A DNA stretch of 42,550 nucleotides from a virus, in IMG/VR virus record IMGVR_UViG_3300020020_000087, positions 1-42,550 of that record. One strand, written 5' to 3'. The first letter of the stretch is position 1; each line of letters opens with the position of its first letter. Below, piece after piece: positions 1,076-39,566 of this stretch. The notes under the pieces are model-generated. The model did no database searches. It was given only the letters and a program-made list of their open reading frames with translations, and had not been told where the DNA came from. Made by a program: the position numbers and the translations under genes.

Positions 1076-3160
1076 TCACGCGATTTCCCCGATCACTTTT
1101 AGCCCCTTCAGCTTGCTGTGCGCGTCGTAGGTTTCGACGCTCAAAACGTTGTTGACCAGCCACGTCTCGATAATGGCCCTTGCAACCTTGGCGTCTATCT
1201 GGAACTGCACCACCATGACCCGCGGCGCGTAGCGTCCGACGGCCTGCGGGGAGATTGACCACGGCGCCCCGGCGTCCCACGCGGCCCGGATCGCGTCGAG
1301 GATCTGGCGGCACACCATGACGTCCGGCCAGCCCGACGGGTGCGGGGCCCGGCCCGGGTCATTGTCGACCACGAGCGACGTCCGCCCCGAGATGTCGGAC
1401 ACGACGACTTCCGTCACCCGGAAGAACTGTTCCCAGCCGTCCTCGGCGTCCTTGATCTTCTTGGCGAAGATGCTCCCCACCATGGCGCCGGGCTCGCGCC
1501 GGACTTCGAGCATGAAGTCGCCAGCGGCGGGCATGACTGTAGAGCCGCGAAAGCCGCCATTGGCGTTGGTGTGGTGCAGGCCGATCACGGTGGTGGCGAA
1601 GCGCTGCCGCACGGCGTCGCAGGCCGCCACGAACAGCGTCATGTCCTTCTGCAGGTTTTCTTCGGCGCCGGGCAGGACGCGCGAGACCGTATCCACGAAG
1701 ACCGCCGCGATCGGCACGGCCGCCACGGCCGCGATCGCGCCGACCGTCGCCAGCAGCTTGCCGACGTCGTCGCCCGACATGAAATTCAGGGTCTCGCGGA
1801 TCAGGTAGAACGGCGCATCGTCAGCCGCGACGCGGCGATGGCTTTCCCACGCCATCAGGCGGAACTTGAGCGAGCCCACGCCCTCGCTCGAAATGTAGAT
1901 CACGGCGCCGCCGCGCGCGATGCCGTGCCCCCACCACACCGGGCGCCGCGTCGCCAGCGCCAGCGCCATGTCGAGCGCGATGAAGGTTTTCAGGCAGCCG
2001 GGCGGGCCGTAGATGAAGCCGAGCGTGCCCTCCGGGACGACGTTATGGATTTCCCACACCGGGTCAGATAGCGCCTTGATGCCGCGCACGTCGAGCCAGC
2101 CGAACTGCTGTGCCGGGTTCGCCGTGGCGGCCTCCTCGGCCTGCGCCGAGGCCTGCTGGAATTCGGCGGCGGGATCCTCGGCGTCGGCGTCCGGGTTCGG
2201 GCGCGCCGCGGCCTCGACCATCTTGGGCGAGCCCCAGTGGCGCATCTCGCGCATCCACTTTTGCCAGAACAGCGTCGTGCCGCGGCCCTCGCGCTCCAGC
2301 GCGTCGGTCTTTGACGCTACGTCAGGCAGCCGCGTGGTGACCTTGCGCTCGTAGTCCAAGTAGGCCCGCGCGCAGGCCTCGCGGCTCTCCGCGTCGGCGG
2401 GCTGGATCGGGCAGGCCCGGTAGAGCTCCAGCACGGCGTGCCAGACGATGTCGCGCATCAGGCCCTCGCGGCCGTCGACCGTGGTGCCGAATTCGTTCTT
2501 GGCCGTGCCGGGCGAGGCCGTGGACGTGCGCGGGCCGCCCCCGTAGGCGGCCGCCAGATCCTCGATCGCGCGCAGCAGCCAGTCCGGCGCGACTTCGATT
2601 TCAATCTCCCACGGGGCGCGCCCGGGCAGCCACGCGTAGGCGTGCTGGCTCTCGTGGATCGATGGCGGCAGCACGGCGAAGCCGCCCTGCCCGCGAATGT
2701 CGACGCCGTTCGCTGTTTTAATCGTAGGAACAACATAGCCCTCCGGCGCGAGGAACAGCTTCTGCCTGCCGCCGCCGCCCGTGCGCTGCTCGGGCGTTTC
2801 GAGGTCGATGCCGTTGTTCTCGACGGCGATCACGGCGAGCCACCAGCGCATCGCGGCCGGGTTCTTGTGTTCATCAAGGTCCACGATCAGGGCATTGCGC
2901 GAACAGCGCCCCGTGATCAGGCCCATGTTGGTGCGGCCCGCGTGCTCGCCGCCGGGGCCGTACCAGCGCTCGAACTGCGCCTGCGGCACCAGCTGCTCCT
3001 GCAGCGGCTGCCACTGCGACAGGAAGGGCCGCTTCCACGAGCCCGCGCCCTCGCCCGGGAGCCAGCCCGGAATGACCTGCAGGCCGCAGGCCCGGTACAT
3101 CGCGGCCCAGTCCGCCGGGCTGGCGAAGTCGGGATCAAATTGTGGGAGAGGCTTGGCCAT
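1076..3160 (-). CDS. Bifunctional primase-polymerase / AAA helicase
   Basis: This 694-aa replication protein starts at the ATG at 3160, which overlaps the upstream stop (TAATG) and has GGAGG nine nt upstream. Residues about 15-200 fit the bifunctional DNA primase/polymerase (Prim-Pol) fold: LITGRCSRNALIVDLDEH with the metal-binding D94/D96, the Gly-rich GGGGRQKLFL, and VDIRGQGGFAVLPPSIHE. Residues about 355-600 fit a RecA-like AAA_25/RepA-type ATPase: Walker A GPPGCLKT (385-392), Walker B VFVD (about 487-490), and GLHHTNANGGFRGST downstream. The fusion of primer synthesis and helicase is typical of small phages without a DNA polymerase. The Pro/Ala-rich stretch at about 315-350 is probably the interdomain linker. 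Confidence 0.9.
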   Translation of the reverse strand: MAKPLPQFDPDFASPADWAAMYRACGLQVIPGWLPGEGAGSWKRPFLSQWQPLQEQLVPQAQFERWYGPGGEHAGRTNMGLITGRCSRNALIVDLDEHKNPAAMRWWLAVIAVENNGIDLETPEQRTGGGGRQKLFLAPEGYVVPTIKTANGVDIRGQGGFAVLPPSIHESQHAYAWLPGRAPWEIEIEVAPDWLLRAIEDLAAAYGGGPRTSTASPGTAKNEFGTTVDGREGLMRDIVWHAVLELYRACPIQPADAESREACARAYLDYERKVTTRLPDVASKTDALEREGRGTTLFWQKWMREMRHWGSPKMVEAAARPNPDADAEDPAAEFQQASAQAEEAATANPAQQFGWLDVRGIKALSDPVWEIHNVVPEGTLGFIYGPPGCLKTFIALDMALALATRRPVWWGHGIARGGAVIYISSEGVGSLKFRLMAWESHRRVAADDAPFYLIRETLNFMSGDDVGKLLATVGAIAAVAAVPIAAVFVDTVSRVLPGAEENLQKDMTLFVAACDAVRQRFATTVIGLHHTNANGGFRGSTVMPAAGDFMLEVRREPGAMVGSIFAKKIKDAEDGWEQFFRVTEVVVSDISGRTSLVVDNDPGRAPHPSGWPDVMVCRQILDAIRAAWDAGAPWSISPQAVGRYAPRVMVVQFQIDAKVARAIIETWLVNNVLSVETYDAHSKLKGLKVIGEIA

Positions 3161-3591
3161 TACAGCGGCCTCCAGCGCGCCGCCTTCAGGATGATGCGCT
3201 CGATCACCGTGATCTGCTTCGGCGACAGTTCGTAGTCGCGGTCGTAGCGCCCGGCCACGTCGATCGCGAACTGGCGTTCCCAGTCCGTCAGCGCCTCCGT
3301 GTCGAGGGCGGCCTCCAGCCCGCACAGCAGGTCATTGCCGAGCAGGCCGCCCTGCTGGCCGTGGCGCTTCGGCGCCGCGTTGACGTTGCTCCACGCCTGC
3401 TGCGGCTGGTGCGGTGGCGGGGGCGGCGCCGTGCCGCCGCTCATCACCTTGGTGACCATCTCGTTGATGGTCATCTTGTGCTTGTCCGCCATCTTCTGGA
3501 TCAGGCTGGCGGCATTGGCGCGCTCGCCGTCGAAGGCGGAGCCGAGCATGCCGAGCAGCTTCTCAAGGCGGTCCTTGTCGGGTAAAGTCAT
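3160..3591 (-). CDS. DUF2786-like protein, 143 aa
   Basis: Residues 6-48 (DRLEKLLGML, GERANAASLIQKMADKHKM) fit the short helical DUF2786 domain, which is common in phages and has no assigned biochemical role. A proline run (PPPPPHQPQQ) follows, then a C-terminal helical part containing DWERQFAIDVAGRYDRD. It ends in WRPL and is coupled to the primase-helicase through TAATG. A 20-bp sequence at this junction recurs exactly at another gene junction (16232-16251). A replication-associated role is inferred from position only. Confidence 0.75.
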   Translation of the reverse strand: MTLPDKDRLEKLLGMLGSAFDGERANAASLIQKMADKHKMTINEMVTKVMSGGTAPPPPPHQPQQAWSNVNAAPKRHGQQGGLLGNDLLCGLEAALDTEALTDWERQFAIDVAGRYDRDYELSPKQITVIERIILKAARWRPL

Positions 3592-3628
3592 GTCATCCTG
3601 CTTTCGGGATCAGAGCCAAAGCGGGCGA

Positions 3629-3663
3629 GGGGCGGCCGGGGGCTCATCTCCCCGGGCCGCCCC
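3629..3663. other. Intercistronic G+C hairpin
   Basis: GGGGCGGCC (3629-3637) pairs with GGCCGCCCC (3655-3663). A further GGGG/CCCC closes a loop around CTCATCT, with one mismatch. There is no T-tract on the transcribed (minus) strand, so it is more likely an mRNA-processing or stability element, or an attenuator, than a full terminator. It separates the ssDNA-binding-like gene from the DUF2786 gene, the only clear gap in this part of the operon. Confidence 0.5.
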
Positions 3664-3672
3664 AACCATGAC

Positions 3673-4398
3673 TCAGCCGAAGTCAGACGCGAAGTCCTGC
3701 TGCGCTGCCGCCTGCGGCGGCGCGGCGCGCTGCGCGCCCGTGGCCGGTGCCGCCGTGCGCGGCTGCGCGGCGCCGTTGCTGGCGGCGCCATTGCCCGGCG
3801 CGACGCCGCGGTCGGGCGGAACGAACGTGAAGTCGCCGCGTGCGGCCCAGCCGACGATCTTGAACGCCGGGTGGTAGTTGGTCGAGCGCCGCGCTCCGGA
3901 TCCGCTCTCCACCGGCATCGGCATGCCGTCGAGCACGATCACCGGCAGCTTGCCCGGGTTCGCGCCCTTCTGGCGATCGTACTCGGCGACCACCTTCTCC
4001 AGCGCCCCGAGCAGCGAGATGGACGTGCCCGCCAGCTCGCGCACGGCCGGAGTGCCCTGCGCGCAGTCGCCCGAGAGCTTGACCAGCACGCGCACGCCCT
4101 GCCGGTGGTTCGTGCTCGGCGCGGTCGGGAACGGGTGGTCGGGGTCATTGCGCGGCGCCAGCGCCATGCTCGGCGCCATGCCGGGCTGGAATTCGATCCA
4201 GCCCACGTAGACGTTCTCGCAGTCGAGCAGGGCCTTGAACGAGGCCGTGATGTCGGCGCTCTGCGAGATGGCGTTGCCGGTCGTGTCGGGCACGCGATCG
4301 ACGCGGAACATGCGTCCGGCGCGGGCGTCGTACTTGATGATACCGAGCCAGTCTCCACCAGTGCCGGGCTGCTTGACGGTAAATCCAAAGGTCGACAT
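3673..4398 (-). CDS. Putative ssDNA-binding protein, 241 aa
   Basis: I start at MSTFGFTV because GGAG lies 6 nt upstream; the ATG two codons earlier would abut the ribosome-binding site. Residues 1-185 form a soluble domain (GGDWLGIIKYDARAGRMFRV, later HPAFKIVGWAARGDFTF). A low-complexity Ala/Pro/Gln linker then leads to a short acidic-aromatic tip, DFASDFG. Ordered domain, flexible linker and acidic tip is the architecture of single-stranded DNA-binding proteins, and the gene lies between a RecB-like nuclease and the primase-helicase. I do not see a definite OB-fold signature, so the function is inferred from architecture and position. Confidence 0.5.
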   Translation of the reverse strand: MSTFGFTVKQPGTGGDWLGIIKYDARAGRMFRVDRVPDTTGNAISQSADITASFKALLDCENVYVGWIEFQPGMAPSMALAPRNDPDHPFPTAPSTNHRQGVRVLVKLSGDCAQGTPAVRELAGTSISLLGALEKVVAEYDRQKGANPGKLPVIVLDGMPMPVESGSGARRSTNYHPAFKIVGWAARGDFTFVPPDRGVAPGNGAASNGAAQPRTAAPATGAQRAAPPQAAAQQDFASDFG

Positions 4399-4462: not shown

Positions 4463-5194
4463 TTAGACGCCCCAAATCTCGAAGGCGCGCTGGCGCATCG
4501 CTGGATCTTTCCAGTAAAAACTATCGAGGTCGGGGACGACGAGAGACACCAGCACCTGCGGATCATCGCTCAGCGCAAGAAATCTTTCAACCGTCTGCGC
4601 GATGCGCAGCAGCGCATTGCGATGCGCGAATACATTCTCAAGCACGTAGGGCTCGATTTTTTTCGGCGTGACATAGATCAAGCGTGCGTCGACGTTGTCG
4701 GACGCTGCATATAGTGCCACCTGCCGCGCGTGCGGTATCTTGATGCTGGACGGCATTTTTTCGGTGGTTTTAAGGTCGGCGATGACGCCATGATTATCCC
4801 AGCGATAGTCATAATACCCTATTATCGGGAATTTCAGCCCGTTCGGTTTCCATTCGATCAGGCCCTGCGTGCTGGTCGGCTTGCCGTACGCGCGCAGTTC
4901 GCCCAACGCCGCGCTCACCATGTCGGGAATGCCGTCGCGGTATTTGGCGCGGCGCGCGTCGGCCGACAGCGCCGTCTTGTTGTCGTACACCGTCATCGCG
5001 ATGGCGACGCACTCGGACAGCGGGGCCTCGGCATTGTTGAGGCCGTGTGTAATCGCGTCCTCGACGGCGGAGCCGCGGTGCGCGGGCGGGCCGACCAGCT
5101 GGCGCTCGCCCAGCACGTACTCCAGCACGAACATCGCGGGCTCGGCGCAGTACAGGTTCAGTCGCGAAGGCGAGTGATGCGGATAGTCGATCAT
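4463..5194 (-). CDS. RecB/Cas4-like PD-(D/E)XK exonuclease, 243 aa
   Basis: The start at 5194 overlaps the upstream stop (ATGA) with GGGGAG 5 nt before it. The N-terminus (HHSPSRLNLYCAEPAMFVLEY) and GSAVEDAITHGL match the opening helices of phage RecB-family nucleases. The catalytic core is IIGYYDYRW followed by VIADLKTTEKMP (the D and LK of the PD-(D/E)XK motif) and ARQVALYAA (the QxxxY-type motif). It probably resects or processes DNA during replication or recombination, next to the ssDNA-binding-like protein and a second nuclease. The C-terminus LSDDPQVLVSLVVPDLDSFYW carries extra acidic and aromatic residues. Confidence 0.8.
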   Translation of the reverse strand: MIDYPHHSPSRLNLYCAEPAMFVLEYVLGERQLVGPPAHRGSAVEDAITHGLNNAEAPLSECVAIAMTVYDNKTALSADARRAKYRDGIPDMVSAALGELRAYGKPTSTQGLIEWKPNGLKFPIIGYYDYRWDNHGVIADLKTTEKMPSSIKIPHARQVALYAASDNVDARLIYVTPKKIEPYVLENVFAHRNALLRIAQTVERFLALSDDPQVLVSLVVPDLDSFYWKDPAMRQRAFEIWGV

Positions 5195-5568
5195 AGGGCT
5201 CCCCATTGTTTCAATGTGTCGAGCGCCTCGTCGAGCGTGTGCGCCACCGCGTAACGATGCCCGAGCGTGCTGCAGATATTCTGGAAGTGCTTTTGCGCGG
5301 GCGACTGCTTGCCCTTGGCGCTCTTGAGTTCGAGCCAGCCCGTGCGTCCGCCCGTCTGCATGATGCAAAGATCCGCGACGCCGGGGCGCAGGCCCTGCTT
5401 GATCATGCGCGCGGCGAGCTGCGGCGAGCGCTTGGCCTCGTTCGGGATGGCGAAGGCGTACACGGTGCGAAAGGCGCGCAGCTTGATGCAATTCAGTACG
5501 GCCGCCTGCAGCTGGCGCTCGCTCGTAACGCTACGGCGAAAGGCCGCCGCCGACACGGTGGCGGCCAT
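5191..5568 (-). CDS. VRR-NUC domain nuclease, 125 aa
   Basis: The start at 5568 is coupled to the GcrA gene by TAATG. The whole protein is a single VRR-NUC (PD-(D/E)XK-type) domain. It opens with SERQLQAAVLNCIKL (the conserved helix with E18), then FAIPNEAKRS, then the catalytic GVADLCIM and WLELKSAKGKQSPAQK (D...ELK). This family includes small phage Holliday-junction-resolvase-like and structure-specific nucleases. It sits directly upstream of the RecB-like nuclease and overlaps it by 4 nt, so the two are probably made together. Confidence 0.85.
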   Translation of the reverse strand: MAATVSAAAFRRSVTSERQLQAAVLNCIKLRAFRTVYAFAIPNEAKRSPQLAARMIKQGLRPGVADLCIMQTGGRTGWLELKSAKGKQSPAQKHFQNICSTLGHRYAVAHTLDEALDTLKQWGAL

Positions 5569-6035
5569 TACTGCGACACCACGTCGAGGTGCTCGGCGCA
5601 CCAGCTCCCGCGCACGGCCTTCCTGCCGCAGTAGACATACGGGGGCCCGTCGTCGCCGAACGGGTAGCGGCACATCGACGGCTCCAGCTGGTAGATCGTG
5701 ACGTGCTTGGCCGGACAGCGCGGCAGCGCGACCGGCCAGCGCGGCAGCACGGCCGGGATCTGCTCCTGCGGCGCCTCGCGCCGCGGCGCGGCAGGTTTGC
5801 TCGGGGTGCGCTTGCGCGTTTTCTTGACGTAGCCGAGCACCTGATAGCTCGGGCGCCGCTTCTGCAGGCCGAGGCGGCGCCCCTTCCCGATGCAGGCGTT
5901 CTTGGTCAGGTGGACCTTGAATTCGGCGCGCAGCGCCGCCGCGATCGCCTCGAACGAATTCATGCCGCTGGCGTGCAGCTGACGCAGGCGCTTGATCATC
6001 TCGTCGGTCCAGACGGTGTCTTGGTTGATGGGCAT
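5568..6035 (-). CDS. gcrA: GcrA-family transcriptional regulator, 155 aa
   Basis: Both ends of the GcrA family are recognisable. The N-terminal DNA-binding domain (residues about 8-57) contains VWTDEMIKRLRQLHASGM and ends in NACIGKGRRLGL, matching the family's NAVIGKxxRLGL. The C-terminal sigma-interacting domain has MCRYPFGDDGPPYVYCG and SWCAEHL, matching the (T/R)CRWPIGD...FCG...YCxxH pattern. Between them is a basic Pro/Arg/Lys linker. In Caulobacter and relatives, GcrA binds sigma-70 domain 2 and stimulates promoters carrying CcrM-methylated GANTC sites. A phage copy would let the virus recruit or redirect the host polymerase, or exploit the cell-cycle state. It is coupled to neighbours on both sides by TAATG overlaps. 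Confidence 0.85.
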   Translation of the reverse strand: MPINQDTVWTDEMIKRLRQLHASGMNSFEAIAAALRAEFKVHLTKNACIGKGRRLGLQKRRPSYQVLGYVKKTRKRTPSKPAAPRREAPQEQIPAVLPRWPVALPRCPAKHVTIYQLEPSMCRYPFGDDGPPYVYCGRKAVRGSWCAEHLDVVSQ

Positions 6036-6235
6036 TATCGTGGTTTCCCTTTTTCCATGTAGGCGCGCACGCGGTCGATCGTCTGCAGCCGCGGCGTGCG
6101 GCCGCCGCGCAGACGCTGAATGAAGTTGCCGTCACGCACGGCGTGGCGGCCGAATACGGTCGGCTCGACGCCGGTCGAAACGAGGTACCGCTCGATGTCG
6201 CTGAGCAGCTGCTTAACGGCCGGATGGTGCTTCAT
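6035..6235 (-). CDS. Small HTH-like DNA-binding protein, 66 aa
   Basis: The segment GRHAVRDGNFIQRLRGGRTPRLQTIDRVRAYM resembles the small alphaproteobacterial proteins with a recognition helix of the type FVxxLRxGRSPRLxTxxxVxxFM, which I take to be a minimal helix-turn-helix. The N-terminus (HHPAVKQLLSDIERYLVSTG) supplies the preceding helix. It overlaps the LuxR-type gene by 23 nt and is coupled to gcrA by TAATG. It is likely a small regulator or adaptor; no target site is evident. Confidence 0.6.
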   Translation of the reverse strand: MKHHPAVKQLLSDIERYLVSTGVEPTVFGRHAVRDGNFIQRLRGGRTPRLQTIDRVRAYMEKGKPR

Positions 6236-6419
6236 ATTGTTTCTTCGCCGTCATGAGGGCCAGTTCGGTGCGATTGCGCGCACCGGTCTTGTTGTAGAGG
6301 GCGTGCAGCATCGCCTTGACGGTGCCCTCGGTGAGCCCGAGGCGCGCGCCGATCTGCTTGTTTGACAGTCCTTGGCATAGTGCGTCCGTCAGCTCTGTTT
6401 CACGCGGCGTCATTGCCAT
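6213..6419 (-). CDS. Stand-alone LuxR/GerE-type HTH protein, 68 aa
   Basis: The protein is almost only a GerE helix-turn-helix: MTPRETELTDALCQGLSNKQ, IGARLGLTEGTVKAMLHAL, then YNKTGARNRTELALMT. It has no receiver or autoinducer domain. Starts at 6419 and 6413 are both possible and neither has a strong ribosome-binding site, so translation may depend on coupling to the upstream gene, which it overlaps by 20 nt. It forms a block of three DNA-binding proteins with the 66-aa protein and GcrA. Confidence 0.8.
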   Translation of the reverse strand: MAMTPRETELTDALCQGLSNKQIGARLGLTEGTVKAMLHALYNKTGARNRTELALMTAKKQYEAPSGR

Positions 6420-6609
6420 CGTCGTTTCTGACGACGGCGAGCGAGCCGTCCTCCACGCGCACGATCCAGTCGCCGATGTCGGCCGCGCTCAGGCCGGTCT
6501 TGGTCGGCACGAACACGCAGCGATACTTCGGGCTGTATTCCACGCCGGGAATGTGCGCGTTGTTCGGGTGCGGGTCGTCGAACATCGCGGCCGTTATCTG
6601 GACTTTCAT
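6400..6609 (-). CDS. Hypothetical small protein, 69 aa
   Basis: The start MKVQITAAMF at 6609 has GGAGACACC immediately upstream and overlaps the upstream stop as ATGA. The sequence is probably beta-rich (YRCVFVPTKTGLSAADIGDWIVRVEDGSLAVVRND, taken in parts) and ends in an acidic tail. No family recognised. Confidence 0.65.
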   Translation of the reverse strand: MKVQITAAMFDDPHPNNAHIPGVEYSPKYRCVFVPTKTGLSAADIGDWIVRVEDGSLAVVRNDDGNDAA

Positions 6610-7001
6610 GGTGTCTCCTTTGCTTTGTAGGGCCATTGGTGCGAGCAGACCGGGCAGACGACGTTCAGACTATTGCCGTGGCGGACGACGCCCTTGATGG
6701 TGCGGCTGTCGCACTTCGGGCAGGCCCACTCATTGCGTGGTCTGGGCGTGCGTGGCCACGTCGGCAGCGCGTCGCCGGGTGCGACCCACGTGCCCTGCGA
6801 GGGCGGGGGCGGCAGATCCGGCGGCGACTTCGGATCGGCGAGCGCCATCTGCTCGAACAGCGGCATGGGCGCGGCCTCCAGCGCATTGCTCGCCTCGATC
6901 AGCAGATCGGCGGCATCCTTCACGGCGTCGTAGTCGCGCATCAGCTGTGTCGTCAGCAGATACGCCGCGCACGTCCGCATACGGTCGGCGATGTCAGACA
7001 T
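6606..7001 (-). CDS. Zinc-ribbon protein, 131 aa
   Basis: Residues 1-45 are helical (MSDIADRMRTCAAYLLTTQL). A Pro-rich linker leads to a C-terminal zinc ribbon with two CxxC knuckles, CPKCDSRTIKGVVRHG and CPVCSHQW, about 22 residues apart. Such ribbons usually bind nucleic acid or a protein partner. GGAAA precedes the ATG at 7001. It overlaps the genes on both sides by a few nucleotides. Confidence 0.7.
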   Translation of the reverse strand: MSDIADRMRTCAAYLLTTQLMRDYDAVKDAADLLIEASNALEAAPMPLFEQMALADPKSPPDLPPPPSQGTWVAPGDALPTWPRTPRPRNEWACPKCDSRTIKGVVRHGNSLNVVCPVCSHQWPYKAKETP

Positions 7002-33797: not shown

Positions 33798-33886
33798 CAG
33801 CGCACCCCCTGATGAAGCGCAAGGACGATGCCGCAGGCCAGCGCCAGCACGATCAGGGCCATGACCGTGGAGCGCTGGGTCATCAT
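33797..33886 (-). CDS. Small membrane peptide, 29 aa
   Basis: The frame MMTQRSTVMALIVLALACGI then VLALHQGVR runs from 33886 (overlapping the portal stop) to a TGATG overlap with the ART-like gene. It is one hydrophobic helix with a positively charged N-terminus, so probably a membrane peptide. Its gapless fit between two genes supports it. Confidence 0.55.
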   Translation of the reverse strand: MMTQRSTVMALIVLALACGIVLALHQGVR

Positions 33887-36198
33887 GTCGGGAAGCCCTG
33901 CGTCTGCTGCTTGAACTGCTGCGCGGCCTGACGCTCGCCCTGACGCGCGGCCATGTCGGCCTGCTTGGCTTGGTGCGAGGCCGCCGCCATGGCGGCCTTC
34001 TCGGCGTCGGCCTGCCGCTTCGCGGCCATCTCGATCATGTCGGCCTGATGCTTCTCGCGATCGGCCGCCATCTTCTGATTGGTCTGCTGCGCCTTCGCTG
34101 CGGCGTCGCCCATGCGCGACTGGATCTCGGCGAGCTTGATCTTCTCGTTGCTCGCGACCTTCATCTTTTCGTGCTGGTCGCGCATCTGCATTTCCTGCTG
34201 CTTCAGCTGCGCCTCGGTCTGGTCACGCGCCTTCACGGCGTCGGTCTTCATCTGCTCGATCTGCAGCGCCGTCTTGTTCTGCGCCGTGACCGGGTCGTCG
34301 CCCTTCGGCTTGTCCTGTTCCTGTTTCATCAGCTCGACCATGTTGTCGATCGAGCCGTCGAGCGTGCGTCCGGCCCGGTACGGCGCGATCGAGAATTTCA
34401 GCAGCTCGCCGCCGAATTCGGCCGTGTGCGGCGTCGCCGCCGCCATGGCGCCGAGCTGCTGCAGCATCGGCGTCAGCACCTGAATGAATTCGGCGCGGCG
34501 GCCCTTCTCGCCGTTCTCGTCGATCATCACGGTGCTGTCGGTTTCGATGTCGAGCGTGAAGGCCTTGGCGCGGTTGTTCTTGAGGAAGTGCAACACCTGC
34601 TCGATCGTCGGCTTATCGTGAATGTCCTTGAGCGCCTTCGTGCCGCTGTCCTGTAGGCGCTGCATTTCCTGCTGCAGCTGCTGCATGCCCTGCGGATTGG
34701 CCTGCATGGCCTGCTGCGCCTGCGGTGAAGTGAGCTGCTGCTGCAGCTGCTGCGCCTGCTGCTGCATGTCGGACACGATCTGCTTGATCTGCGTCTGCTG
34801 CATCTCGCGCGTCGGCAATTGCGTCTGCGACATCTCGATGATGGTGACTTCGTCAAATACTTCCGTGATGATTTCGCTGGTGACGCTCACGAGCCCCTTG
34901 GCGAGCCGCACGAGCTCCTGCTGCTTGTCCTTGATGCGCGTCGAGCCGAATTGCGTCTTCAGCTCCTGCGCGCCGAGCGTCTCGCGCGCGTCGGTCGCGC
35001 CGCGCATGATGTCGCTTAGCCCAGTGATTTGATAGACATCATCGATCACCTGCTTGCGCATCGTCAGCAGCGTCTGCGCCGTGGTCGCGATCATGTCGAT
35101 CGGCATCCAGATGATCGTGTCCTTGCTGCCGCCGAAGGCGGCCCAGTTGCTGATCGGGACCATCACGATGCCGGGCGTATTGGCCTTGATCGCCGTCTGG
35201 ATCGCGTCCGCCAGTTCGCCGCCACCGGCCGGGTAGAAGCCGCGCGCCACGAGCGCGTCGGAGAGGGCGTGAATGCGGCCCGTGAGCAGGTTGATTTCTT
35301 CGAGCTGGTCCCTGTACTGCAGCACTTCCGGCACCGGGATCAGCGAGCCCGGCTGCACCGTGCTGTAGGCCGGTTTCGGACACGGAAAAAAATCCTGTAG
35401 CTCAAGGTGCGGCTCGTCCTCGTCGAGGATGTCGTCGCAGCCCTCGCTGACCCACACGACGCGGCGGTCGCGCCTGCTCCAGATTTCCCAGAATTTCGCG
35501 CGCTCGCGCTTATCGGTGCCGCCGATCTGCTGCGCGTCGCGATCGACGCGGTAGTCGGCGTCCTGATAGCAGAGCCCGGAGTGTTTCTTGAAGCGATCGC
35601 GCGCATCCTCACGCGTCATGTAACTCGCGGCGGCGACCCACTCGACTTCGCGCCACGAGCGCGACAGCGAATGCAGGAAGTCGCGGCGGTTCTTGTGGTC
35701 GATGCAAACTTTTTCGTAGTCGTAGTATCCGCTGCCCTTGCCGCTCTCGTAGCGGCACCACGCCACGCCGCGGCTGTAGAGCGCCACGTCGTCGCGCACC
35801 AGCAGCATCAGGTCGTTGATGTGGGCGAGGTCGAACGCGACCACGCAGCAGCGCTCCATCACCTCGCTGGCGGCCTGATAGACCGGGCGCCGGTCCTTGA
35901 ACTTGGGCACCACGACCGGGACTGGCGGCTTGGCGTAGATGCTCGGACGCAGCACCTCGATGTTGGCCCAGAACATTTGAAACTCTTTATCGCGCGCCAT
36001 GCCGGAGAGGCGCTCAAGGTTGGCGTACTGCTTGTCGATGCGGTCGCAGTGCTCGTTCCACGGCTCGAAGGCCTCCTCGGCCTCCTCCAGCAGGTTGAGC
36101 CACGCCTTCGCGCTGCCGGGCTCAAGGCGCGGATTGAATTCAAGATCGTCATGGCGGACGTCGCTGTCGTCGGGCGGGATGATCGGTTTATCGGCCAT
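33883..36198 (-). CDS. Portal protein, 771 aa
   Basis: The position after terminase and the features of podovirus portals support this: AWLNLLEEAEEAFEPWNEHC, FWANIEVLRPSIYAKPPVPV, and QITGLSDIMRGATDARETLG with AQELKTQFGSTRIKDKQQEL (the conserved crown/stem region). The C-terminal 280 residues are Gln-rich helices (QQQAQQLQQQLTSPQAQQAM; later MAADREKHQADMIEMAAKRQ), probably the long barrel of large podovirus portals. Twelve copies would form the DNA channel. It overlaps the sigma-region-4 gene by 11 nt. Confidence 0.9.
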   Translation of the reverse strand: MADKPIIPPDDSDVRHDDLEFNPRLEPGSAKAWLNLLEEAEEAFEPWNEHCDRIDKQYANLERLSGMARDKEFQMFWANIEVLRPSIYAKPPVPVVVPKFKDRRPVYQAASEVMERCCVVAFDLAHINDLMLLVRDDVALYSRGVAWCRYESGKGSGYYDYEKVCIDHKNRRDFLHSLSRSWREVEWVAAASYMTREDARDRFKKHSGLCYQDADYRVDRDAQQIGGTDKRERAKFWEIWSRRDRRVVWVSEGCDDILDEDEPHLELQDFFPCPKPAYSTVQPGSLIPVPEVLQYRDQLEEINLLTGRIHALSDALVARGFYPAGGGELADAIQTAIKANTPGIVMVPISNWAAFGGSKDTIIWMPIDMIATTAQTLLTMRKQVIDDVYQITGLSDIMRGATDARETLGAQELKTQFGSTRIKDKQQELVRLAKGLVSVTSEIITEVFDEVTIIEMSQTQLPTREMQQTQIKQIVSDMQQQAQQLQQQLTSPQAQQAMQANPQGMQQLQQEMQRLQDSGTKALKDIHDKPTIEQVLHFLKNNRAKAFTLDIETDSTVMIDENGEKGRRAEFIQVLTPMLQQLGAMAAATPHTAEFGGELLKFSIAPYRAGRTLDGSIDNMVELMKQEQDKPKGDDPVTAQNKTALQIEQMKTDAVKARDQTEAQLKQQEMQMRDQHEKMKVASNEKIKLAEIQSRMGDAAAKAQQTNQKMAADREKHQADMIEMAAKRQADAEKAAMAAASHQAKQADMAARQGERQAAQQFKQQTQGFPT

Positions 36199-37114
36199 AA
36201 GACTTCCCCGGTGTCGGCGGCGTCATGCCCAGCTTCTGATAGACCACGCGAACGTTCGCGTCGTAGTGGGACGACCCCGACAGCGAATTCAGTGCGCGCA
36301 CATAATAGAGCCGGATCTTGTCTTCCGCTTCCTCAATCTCGCGCTGCTTGGCGCGGTCCCGCTCGGCCTGTATCGCGGCGCGCAGCTCCTCCTCGCGGCG
36401 CCGCTGTGCGGCGACCTGCAGGCGCAGCTCGGCGAGTGCGGCGCGCTCTTTTTCCAGTATGCGTGCGTAGGTCTCGTCGCGCGCCATCTGCTCGGCCTGC
36501 GCGGGATTGCGCGGCGCGCGCAGGTCGAACGATCGGCCCCGGACGTCAGCAGGCGCCCACTCGCCGCGCTCGCGCAGCGCGCGCCGCTCCGCGGCCGCGG
36601 CCTTCTGGGCGGCCCTGAAGGCGGCCTCGTCGGCGAGCGCCTTGGCGGCCTTGGCGGCGGCTCTGAGCTCGGCGCGGCGCCAGTGCGGCACGTAGAGGTT
36701 CGGCGCGGCGGGCTCGTGCGTGCGCCTGCGCCATGGCAGTGACTTCACGCGGCTCGGTGCGCGCAGGCGCCGGAAGGCGCGCCAGCGCAGCTGGTGAATG
36801 CGCGCAGTCGAAAGCTCGAACTGCTCCGCTATCTCGATGAACGTCGTAGGCTCGACGCCGAGGCCGAAGTACTGACGCAGGATGCGCTCCTCGCGCGCGG
36901 GGATGCGCGCGAGCGCGTCGCCGATCGCGGCCTCGTCCTCACGCGCGATCAGGATCTCCTCGGGCGACGGCACGTCGGGCGGGTCATACAGCGCACGATT
37001 TTCGTACAGCTCGGCATAGGCGCGGCGCTCTTGGGACGGAAACAGCGGGAGCGGAATGGATCTGTTCTCGGGCTTGCGCCTGCGCCACCCCGCGATGCCG
37101 CGCTGGTCCCTCAC
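36188..37114 (-). CDS. Sigma-70 region 4 protein with long coiled-coil tail, 308 aa
   Basis: The start is GTG at 37114, overlapping the terminase stop (GTGA). Residues about 57-125 match sigma-70 region 4: EDEAAIGDALARIPAREERI, LRQYFGLGVEPTTFIEIAEQ, FELSTARIHQLRWRAFRRLR, APSR. Compared with E. coli sigma-70, the -35-contacting R584/E585/R588 are replaced here by T/A/H while Q589 is kept, so promoter specificity may differ. Regions 1-3 are absent. Residues about 145-280 are a charged Ala/Arg/Glu coiled coil, and the C-terminus resembles nothing known. Likely a transcription regulator; why it sits between TerL and portal is unclear. Confidence 0.75.
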   Translation of the reverse strand: MRDQRGIAGWRRRKPENRSIPLPLFPSQERRAYAELYENRALYDPPDVPSPEEILIAREDEAAIGDALARIPAREERILRQYFGLGVEPTTFIEIAEQFELSTARIHQLRWRAFRRLRAPSRVKSLPWRRRTHEPAAPNLYVPHWRRAELRAAAKAAKALADEAAFRAAQKAAAAERRALRERGEWAPADVRGRSFDLRAPRNPAQAEQMARDETYARILEKERAALAELRLQVAAQRRREEELRAAIQAERDRAKQREIEEAEDKIRLYYVRALNSLSGSSHYDANVRVVYQKLGMTPPTPGKSYGR

Positions 37115-38481
37115 AGCCGTATCCCCCGGCGATCGGGATCCGGCGGCGGGATGGTGATGCCGGTGCGCTCGGGCGTCCTGACCACGCGCAGCGGGGCCTT
37201 GCGCCACGACAGGCTCAGATACCGGAAGCTGTCGGCCGGGTCCGTCGTCCAGTCGTCGACGTGGCTCTTTTTGAACGACTTCGTCTCGTCGTTCCACTCG
37301 CGCCGATACTGCTCCAGAGCCCCGATGCCGCTAAGGTTACCGACATCACAGCGCGGGTGAAACACACACAAAGGCAGCGTGCGCCGCACCGCGTTGACGC
37401 CGTCGTCGACCGACGCGTCGGGAGCCATCTGAGGGCTGAGGCCCAGCTGTCGCATCGTCTCGACACGCGTGCGGCCAGTACCAATTTCCTTGACGCGCGC
37501 ATCGTGCGGCACCCAATCGATCCCGTGCGTCCAGCCGCGCTCGGCGTAGACCTGTTCGAGGTAGTCGCGGTAATGCTCGAAGCCGACGCCGCTGGCGCTG
37601 TAGTGGTCAAGCACGTAGACCTGCGCGCCGACGCTCGCGAACATCCAGATGCTGGTGCTGTGGCCGACGCCCAGATCCCAGCTGCGATTGACCGGCACGC
37701 CGGGCGGCACGTCGATGTCGGCAATGCGGCCCTCCTCGCGCACGGCCGCCATCTCGCCCGCGTAGAACGTGCCGAGCGTGGCGGCCTGCCAGTCGCACAT
37801 CAGCTCCTGCCGGTACGAGGCCATGCCCTGATCGGCGCCGTACAGCGATTGCATCTCGGCGAGCGTCTCGGCCAGCGTCGTGTCGCTCAGCATGCCGGTG
37901 TCGCGCGCAGTCAGCAGCTCGCAGAACCACGACGGCGTCTTGCTCGCATACTTGAACATCTCGAACGCATGATTTCGGCCGCGCGGCGTGGTGATAAAGA
38001 CAGCCCAGCCGTCGTTTTCTTCGAGCATCGGCCGCGCGAAGGCCCACACACTCGGATTGGATAATGCGTATTCGCTAAAGGTTATTCCCGCGTAGCTGGA
38101 GCCCACGAGAGAAGTATTATAAGTGTCGCTGCCTATAACCTGCCACGTCGAGCCGTTCTTAAACCTCAAGAACATTTCGTTATCGTTCGTGCTTAATCGT
38201 AGCGCCTCCGGGAAGGCCTCGTCGATGCGGCGCATTCCCGTGTGAGGATTAACGGCCGTCCAAATACTTTTACGGCCCTGCCCGAATTCCGGCAGGCAGT
38301 GCGCATAATTGCCGACACGATCGAACGCGGCGATCGCGGCGTTGTGCAGGCACACGTCGTCCTTGCCCGCGCGCCTGTGCCACACGGCTAAAGCCCGCTT
38401 GCCTCCCGCACGCAAAAAACGCCACAGCGGCATTTGATGCTCGCGTGGCGTCCAGCCTCCGAACGGCAATTCTATTTTCAT
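37111..38481 (-). CDS. terL: Terminase large subunit, 456 aa
   Basis: This is the packaging motor ATPase and nuclease. The adenine-binding segment and Walker A lie at the N-terminus (WTPREHQMPLWRFL, VWHRRAGKDD, residues 34-42). Walker B with the catalytic Glu is AGITFSEYAL (131-140), followed by the coupling motif VFITTPRGR. The nuclease domain starts with NRSWDLGVGHSTSIWM (D269) and ends with DDWTTDPADSFRYL, which supplies further acidic residues. It is coupled on both sides by four-base overlaps. Confidence 0.92.
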   Translation of the reverse strand: MKIELPFGGWTPREHQMPLWRFLRAGGKRALAVWHRRAGKDDVCLHNAAIAAFDRVGNYAHCLPEFGQGRKSIWTAVNPHTGMRRIDEAFPEALRLSTNDNEMFLRFKNGSTWQVIGSDTYNTSLVGSSYAGITFSEYALSNPSVWAFARPMLEENDGWAVFITTPRGRNHAFEMFKYASKTPSWFCELLTARDTGMLSDTTLAETLAEMQSLYGADQGMASYRQELMCDWQAATLGTFYAGEMAAVREEGRIADIDVPPGVPVNRSWDLGVGHSTSIWMFASVGAQVYVLDHYSASGVGFEHYRDYLEQVYAERGWTHGIDWVPHDARVKEIGTGRTRVETMRQLGLSPQMAPDASVDDGVNAVRRTLPLCVFHPRCDVGNLSGIGALEQYRREWNDETKSFKKSHVDDWTTDPADSFRYLSLSWRKAPLRVVRTPERTGITIPPPDPDRRGIRL

Positions 38482-38732
38482 CGCTGCGGCGCCTTCGACC
38501 CCTCACCGATATGGCGCACGATAATCTCGATCGTGCCGCCCTCTTTTCCAGTAATCTCCTGCGTCTGCGCGGGCTTGCCCCAGCCGCGATTAAGGATCGA
38601 ATTCGCGGCCGCAACGCGGACGGCGTCGTCGGTGCTCTTTTCAGCGATGCCGCCCAGTATCTCGATCGCCCTGCGCGTATAGCTGCGCGCAAATGACTTC
38701 ACGTCGATGTATTTCCTAGTTTTTGTAGGCAT
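38478..38732 (-). CDS. Putative terminase small subunit-like protein, 84 aa
   Basis: The start is ambiguous: MPTKTRKYID at 38732 or MRYPTQMPTK at 38750. I give the former, with GAGG 12 nt upstream, because the longer form would leave no spacing after its ribosome-binding site. The helical segment FARSYTRRAIEILGGIAEKS, TDDAVRVAAANSILNRGWGK matches small HTH-like proteins immediately preceding TerL in many phages. The C-terminus ITGKEGGTIEIIVRHIGEG may contact TerL. DNA recognition for packaging is inferred from position. Confidence 0.65.
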   Translation of the reverse strand: MPTKTRKYIDVKSFARSYTRRAIEILGGIAEKSTDDAVRVAAANSILNRGWGKPAQTQEITGKEGGTIEIIVRHIGEGSKAPQR

Positions 38733-38919
38733 TTGCGTCGGGTACCTCATCCTCTTGCTTAAGCTTATCGACGTCGCGCCGCAGCTGTGCGATCAGGTTG
38801 TTCAACAGCACCATTTCGCGGGCCAGCCCGAGCACGGCCCCGTGCAATTCCGTCAGGATCGCAGTCCGCGTCGCGAGTTGCGCTGCGTCAATCATGCTGA
38901 CGATTTTCATGTTCGACAT
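38716..38919 (-). CDS. Hypothetical helical protein, 67 aa
   Basis: The protein is helical with heptad-like Leu spacing (LTELHGAVLGLAREMVLLNN, LIAQLRRDVDKLKQEDEVPD), probably a small coiled-coil oligomer. It overlaps the terminase small-subunit-like gene by 17 nt. No family recognised; assistance in packaging is possible from context. Confidence 0.6.
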   Translation of the reverse strand: MSNMKIVSMIDAAQLATRTAILTELHGAVLGLAREMVLLNNLIAQLRRDVDKLKQEDEVPDANAYKN

Positions 38920-38979: not shown

Positions 38980-39228
38980 TCAAGGTTTCGGGGGTAACTT
39001 CGGCCGCTTCGGCACCAGCGGCTTGGTCCCCGACATCAGCAGCGCACTGAGCAGCAGCACCGTGGCCACGGGCACGCGCGCCGTGCCCTCGACGTAGCGC
39101 CGCCCCGTGCGCGGGCTGACACCAAGGTATCGCCCCGCTGAACTTTGGTTAAGGCCCAGCGCCGCGATCGCACGCGCGTAGCCGCGCGGCGACAGACTGC
39201 GCGTGTCTTGCCAGCTTGTTTTGTCCAT
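38980..39228 (-). CDS. Small HTH regulator, candidate operator-binding protein, 82 aa
   Basis: AGGAG precedes the ATG at 39228. A helix-turn-helix is clear: GYARAIAALGLNQSSAGRYL followed by GVSPRTGRRYVEGTARVPVA. A basic Pro-rich tail ends in KRPKLPPKP. It is the first gene of the leftward late operon, and its promoter is a diverged copy of the dispersed operator module facing the rightward 39348 gene. It is therefore the best candidate for the protein that binds those sites, either repressing the rightward genes or activating the late operon. Confidence 0.75.
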   Translation of the reverse strand: MDKTSWQDTRSLSPRGYARAIAALGLNQSSAGRYLGVSPRTGRRYVEGTARVPVATVLLLSALLMSGTKPLVPKRPKLPPKP

Positions 39229-39255
39229 GTGTTCGCTCCTGTGTTGGTTTTTCGA

Positions 39256-39322
39256 GACTACAGAAACTAGGCCAATCTGTCAAAAAGGATATTGACAGCC
39301 TAGGTCACGCTGGCCTACAAGT
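39256..39322. promoter_or_regulatory. Divergent promoter-operator, copy 2
   Basis: Rightward, TTGACA (39292-39297) is followed by CCTAGGTCACGCTGGCCTA and a TACAAG -10, with CACCAACAACGGAG leading to the ATG at 39348. Leftward, TTGACA (39283-39278) is followed after 17 bp by TAGTCT (39260-39255 approximately) and encloses GGCCTAGTTT. Both carry the CTAGG/GGCCTAG elements of the module, more degenerate than in copies 1, 3 and 4. Confidence 0.65.
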
Positions 39323-39347
39323 GCATCACCAACAACGGAGAGACGCC

Positions 39348-39566
39348 ATGAACAAGCTGATCACTGCCTACCGCGCCGACCCCACCCTGAAGAACGCCCA
39401 GAAGATCCGCGCGCACGATCGCGCCCACCCGATGTCGCGCAGCGTCCTGTCCAAGGACGACGCGGATCTGGTCGCCGACGCGATCCACAAGGCCAATGCG
39501 GGCCAGATCGAAGACGCCCTGCGCAAGCGCTTCCCCGGCCTCGGCGACAAGCTGATCGTCATCTAA
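39348..39566 (+). CDS. Hypothetical protein, 72 aa
   Basis: The ATG at 39348 follows AACAACGGAGAGACGCC of the conserved leader. The product is charged and helical (MNKLITAYRADPTLKNAQKI, DDADLVADAIHKANAGQIED, ending FPGLGDKLIVI). No family recognised. It is the first of four rightward genes under the repeated module. Confidence 0.7.
   Translation: MNKLITAYRADPTLKNAQKIRAHDRAHPMSRSVLSKDDADLVADAIHKANAGQIEDALRKRFPGLGDKLIVI

Follow-up and report, generated by a model that had tools for sequence, protein, structure and literature searches.

The window, a 42,550-base IMG/VR virus record of 65.8% G+C analysed over its whole length, encodes a stand-alone sigma-70 region 4 domain with a long basic helical tail, in a gene lying between those for the terminase large subunit (terL) and the portal. 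We put the probability at about one half that this protein is a late transcription regulator, derived from sigma region 4, that acts with the host RNA polymerase. In the proposed mechanism the protein is made within the late operon, with translational coupling to terL presumably driving its expression; the recognition helix would bind phage DNA at a site different from TTGACA, and host RNA polymerase would be contacted by the sigma-4 surface, the helical tail, or both. That contact would change promoter choice or elongation in late expression, the target and sign of the change being themselves presumed.

The gene is where the original prediction placed it, and its coordinates, with those of its neighbours and of the parts discussed below, are as follows.

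33883-36198, minus strand: portal protein, downstream border of the slot (phrog_12082, E=4.7e-179)
36188-37114, minus strand: sigma-70 region 4 protein gene, 308 aa, GTG start
36278-36685, minus strand: two long charged Ala/Arg/Glu-rich helices, residues 144-182 and 204-279 (AlphaFold2, composition)
36722-36976, minus strand: sigma region 4 domain, residues 47-131 (end of the 3.2 linker, 4.1 and 4.2)
36767-36808, minus strand: predicted recognition helix, residues 103-116 (T103, A104, H107, Q108)
37111-38481, minus strand: terL, terminase large subunit, upstream border of the slot (phrog_2, E=1e-22)
38478-38750, minus strand: probable terS, 90 aa, a neighbour outside the finding itself (weak PHROG matches only)
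38716-38919, leftward: 67-aa gene of the late operon, ahead of probable terS
38980-39228, minus strand: 82-aa HTH protein, head of the late operon (weak Xre-like match, E=0.0008, below cut-off)
5568-6035, minus strand: GcrA homologue (PF07750, E=1.3e-18)

The late genes run leftward in the order 82-aa HTH gene, 67-aa gene, probable terS, terL, sigma-4 gene and portal, and every junction overlaps except the first, between the 82-aa HTH gene and the 67-aa gene. The sigma-4 gene shares 4 nt with the terL stop and 11 nt with the portal start; its GTG lies within the terL stop (GTGA) and is preceded by a GGGGGA stretch. Relatives of the probable terS precede terL in many related loci, and TerS families are absent among the Pfam and PHROG matches of the sigma-4 gene product at E<=0.1. 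No terminal direct repeat was found in the 42,550-base window. Genomes of Hyphomicrobiales, among them Ancylobacter and Mesorhizobium, contain relatives of the portal, which suggests that the phage infects bacteria of this order.

The sigma region 4 domain and its helical tail

Sigma70_r4 (PF04545) is the sole Pfam family matched by the window protein, and the profile is covered in full (39.6 bits against a cut-off of 24.1, E=3.7e-10; residues 67-119, profile positions 1-50 of 50). A phmmer search of the PDB places E. coli RpoD region 4 on top (1tlh_B, E=1.8e-8, residues 61-124), the PHROGs match is to a phage RNA polymerase sigma factor (E=3.8e-10), and a series of NCBIfam sigma-factor models, with RpoD types among the best, falls on the residues of the domain. 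An AlphaFold2 model built from six sequences has an overall pTM of 0.30 and a poorly modelled N-terminus, and is therefore readable for the sigma-4 domain only, in which helices span residues 51-68, 73-83, 92-99 and 103-116 (pLDDT 71-89 by blocks of ten). Among the 50 Foldseek and VIA-align rows shown, PDB entries are RNA polymerase sigma subunits throughout (Z 10-11.6; 10.4-11.6 for RpoD/SigA), a result compatible with other folds for the tail. Residues 47-131 can be fitted onto E. coli RpoD 527-613 over 79-87 residues (Z about 11, rmsd 1.9-3.1), and the match thus extends over the end of region 3.2 together with 4.1 and 4.2. The predicted sigma-70 region 4 is therefore a true domain by Pfam, PDB sequence match and predicted fold; the alignment with region 4.2 originally described holds, and the match reaches further, into 4.1 and the end of 3.2. 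Because the best sequence and fold matches are all to sigma factors, and given the coverage of the domain, a generic HTH is ruled out.

In four Hyphomicrobiales genomes the best match is a region 4 (42% identity over 60 residues) within an open frame of about 700 aa, the size expected of RpoD, and judged by sequence the window protein's domain is derived from a primary-type sigma factor. Sequence and predicted fold both identify it as the full domain of RpoD region 4, with the 3.2-4 junction included; unlike RpoD, the window protein has no regions 1-3, has R584, E585 and R588 replaced, and carries a long basic helical C-terminus. A search with the region 2 profile (Sigma70_r2, PF04542), positive as a control in 11 of 14 genomes, gave no match in the window at E<=1. 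This supports the earlier claim that the other sigma regions are missing and speaks against a split sigma with a separate region 2 in the window; region 2, which reads the -10 element, was not found, and the window protein is not a complete sigma-70 factor.

Residues 131-308 consist of 21% Ala, 16% Arg and 11% Glu with a net charge of +10, and the pI of the whole protein is 10.3. The tail had been described as a long charged coiled coil, but neither of its two long predicted helices has a heptad signal (p 0.29 and 0.32, strong hydrophobics), leaving that description unsupported.

In E. coli sigma-70 the -35 element is contacted by R584, E585, R588 and Q589. Alignment with RpoD confirms that these positions read T103, A104, H107 and Q108 in the window protein, which thus falls short of the recognition set of primary sigma factors. 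The same three residues are lost, and Q589 kept, in four relatives, the aligned positions reading G, N, M, Q in L006, T, T, Q, Q in L070, and T, S, W, Q in L122 and L123; the canonical R, E, R, Q is retained in the L003 phage protein and in a Methylorubrum sigma factor. R554 and R586 are retained in all aligned proteins, positions 596-599 form a mostly basic patch (with Q at 599 in L006), and R562 is absent from the window protein and L006. Alternative sigma factors likewise vary at the four contact positions, so these changes are no proof of lost DNA binding. The domain could still bind DNA while no longer reading TTGACA, and the combination of kept R554, R586 and Q589 with altered contacts is what one would expect if a DNA-binding domain had changed its specificity.

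Lost -35 contacts in a preserved fold would also suit a decoy, in which the sigma-4 domain sits on the beta flap in place of host sigma region 4. Transcription of host and early phage genes would then fall late in infection, with no need of a sequence-specific DNA target. T4 gp33, a sigma-4 mimic that binds the flap tip and represses basal transcription (PMC2988020), offers a model for such an activity, no region 2 was found with which to form a split sigma, and the accessory distribution described below fits a host-specific add-on. However, a pure decoy would have no use for R554, R586 and Q589 or for the basic patch at 596-599, most of which are preserved, and we consider this explanation unlikely, if a serious one.

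The terL-portal slot

Loci around related portal and terL genes were compared. The gap between terL and portal ranges from 0 to 1.8 kb and its gene content varies. L006 and L070 carry sigma-4 proteins in this slot. L024, L041, L054, L075 and L101 carry a separate family, which combines a charged stretch at the N-terminus with a sigma-4.2-like HTH, and L010 a third protein type; in these six loci the Sigma70_r4 matches are weak and cover the HTH half only. Small proteins of the 'KTALTFEEKITAAFMHYV' type, assigned an HTH by weak match only, occupy the slot in about ten loci. Of the 47 contigs in which the slot is visible, 10 leave it empty (L020, L026, L035, L045, L046, L049, L053, L065, L067 and L040; L081, whose contig begins within the portal gene, is left out of this list, and an intein-like insert in L040 terL is excluded from slot length), and an annotated slot gene is absent from the cultured relatives Rhizobium phage RHph_I3_18, Bradyrhizobium phage ppBjS10J-1, Acetobacter phage phiAX1 and Stenotrophomonas phage BUCT708. 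In both L040 and L069 terL appears interrupted: the L040 insert (about 5048-6004) precedes the last part of the gene, which resumes as CDAFRYLAMAW, and L069 terL (1898-4240) is split into two parts separated by about 1 kb.

Across 48 clade contigs (1.54 Mb) the slot amounts to about 23.6 kb, or about 1.5% of their sequence, and holds all five of their Sigma70_r4 matches above cut-off and 7 of the 15 at E<=0.01. The probability of such clustering by chance is about 1e-9 if matches are independent, and the true figure is weaker since the contigs are related, as L041 and L054 are. The position is non-random, and the presence of three protein types makes the clustering hard to dismiss. We conclude that the region between terL and portal is a variable accessory slot of the clade that repeatedly holds sigma-4-type HTH genes, which partly explains a position previously regarded as unexplained.

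Because the slot is empty in ten contigs and in cultured relatives, the protein is no core packaging part. A role as packaging accessory, the HTH and long helix working alongside the short TerS where terminase meets portal, would agree with the location, the overlapping reading frames and the small size and weak matches of the probable TerS; it is nonetheless very unlikely, as close relatives that have TerL and portal leave the slot empty and the domain is specifically that of sigma region 4.

The other slot proteins retain just the HTH half, which suggests that DNA binding is what the slot selects. The same six loci would fit a regulator confined to an operator, in which the borrowed sigma-4 fold binds an operator of the terminase-portal operon and either represses that operon or adjusts terminase relative to structural genes, without touching the polymerase. 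Yet the window protein, L006 and L070 retain both region 4.1 and the 3.2-4 linker, which a mere operator binder could do without, and an operator was not found; we rate this alternative as unlikely.

The L006 protein is 43% identical to the window protein across the aligned part, and both carry LYDPP..P.PE before the domain and NLYVP[HD]W after it, which favours an orthologue over a merely shared domain. Full-length orthologue scans with individual proteins yielded L006 only; L070 was found among the portal-derived loci, and L122 and L123, which belong to another phage type, with the alignment. The proteins of L122 (5995-6618) and L123 (5992-6690) are stand-alone sigma region 4 domains fused to a different C-terminal part, and the L123 gene lies near a GcrA homologue and, by eye, recombination-like genes. 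In L003, L004 and L005 a phage protein has a canonical RpoD region 4 with R584, E585, R588 and Q589 intact in a frame of about 250 aa. No relative was confirmed in the bacterial genomes scanned with the family alignment. Among 397 genomes of the presumed host order, the matches listed, checked in part of the rows, are mostly to region 4 only and mostly in long frames the size of sigma factors, and a Methylorubrum hit (H65) proved to be a complete sigma factor. Elsewhere in the window, a 131-aa protein starting MSDIADRMRTCAAYL (6606-7001, minus strand) resembles by eye the slot genes of L058, L059, L082 and L085, and from this resemblance slot genes may move between loci.

Late transcription and precedents for a free region 4

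Three features together argue for a transcription regulator: expression from the late operon, preservation of the sigma-4 fold despite altered readout, and the apparent selection of DNA-binding proteins by the slot. We favour one acting late and with host polymerase because the full region 4 is above the Pfam cut-off with RpoD as its best sequence and fold match, because L006, L070, L122 and L123 share the pattern of kept and changed residues, because of the high pI and the confinement of above-cut-off matches to the slot, and because there is a precedent in GafZ. This Caulobacter protein, which belongs to the gene transfer agent and is predicted to contain a sigma-factor-like HTH, is an anti-terminator of a phage-like structural operon (PMC11150451). 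GafZ/GafA control a phage-like structural operon, as is proposed for the window protein, and share with it an alphaproteobacterial setting and a sigma-factor-like HTH (PMC11150451, PMC9638019); the window protein, however, has no Pfam match beyond Sigma70_r4, and GafY and GafZ are encoded by their own operon whereas the window gene lies between terL and portal. T4 gp33 forms a split sigma with gp55 and substitutes for sigma domain 4 (PMC2988020), and so would resemble the window protein in filling that role without the rest of sigma, but it recognises no DNA sequence and works with gp55, and the window yielded no region 2 protein. By analogy with GafZ and gp33, such parts can work without a full sigma.

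Stand-alone sigma-4 proteins are already annotated in phages, and we found no account of their function. The top match in a viral structure library, A0A6J5S254 ('Sigma70_r4 domain containing', uncultured Caudovirales), is likewise a free-standing phage region 4; it has 136 aa, and the window protein differs in its long helical tail. As the window protein combines a complete domain with altered readout and a non-random position in the late operon, action of a free region 4 on host polymerase is testable with one small protein, and if it holds, alphaproteobacterial phages gain a parallel to GafZ and T4 gp33. A broader scheme, which we think quite unlikely, is that the alphaproteobacterial phages of this clade control late expression via exchangeable sigma-4-type proteins encoded in the slot. 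These would be free sigma domains whose -35 specificity has been rewritten and which swap onto the host's polymerase, with other HTH proteins of a similar kind taking their place in different phages.

Retargeting of host polymerase to late promoters is plausible as a model. Against its simplest form, the late operon is preceded by an exact TTGACA promoter-like region. This divergent intergenic region (39229-39348), flanked by the 82-aa HTH gene on one side and by rightward genes on the other, carries TTGACA without mismatch on both strands and is the only promoter-like region found ahead of the operon, which may therefore start from a host-type promoter that host sigma-70 should read unaided. 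Other points also weigh against a late regulator: the gene is dispensable in the clade, as the empty slots show, and sits within the operon it supposedly controls; no target site for the protein was found; terminators, which an anti-termination model would concern, are not enriched (17 found against 13.4 expected); and R562 is lost.

The GcrA homologue named in the original prediction is real, but its suggested pairing with the sigma-4 gene is not specific. GcrA occurs in 17 of the 48 clade contigs (L123's contig left out), mostly without a full region-4 protein, and is therefore a habit of the clade rather than a particular partner. The suggested absence of a phage RNA polymerase is not proven, as it was judged by PF00940 alone, for which the control search was silent. 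Near GcrA lies a 68-aa stand-alone HTH protein of the LuxR/GerE type (6213-6419, minus strand; PF00196, E=2.6e-13).

From its sequence features the 39229-39348 region likely holds an operator and promoters. Near 39269-39305 lies an imperfect palindrome (CTAGGC..TGTCA / TGACA.GCCTAG), and the two start codons of the divergent region are each set in a 28-nt arm, the arms being 75% complementary.
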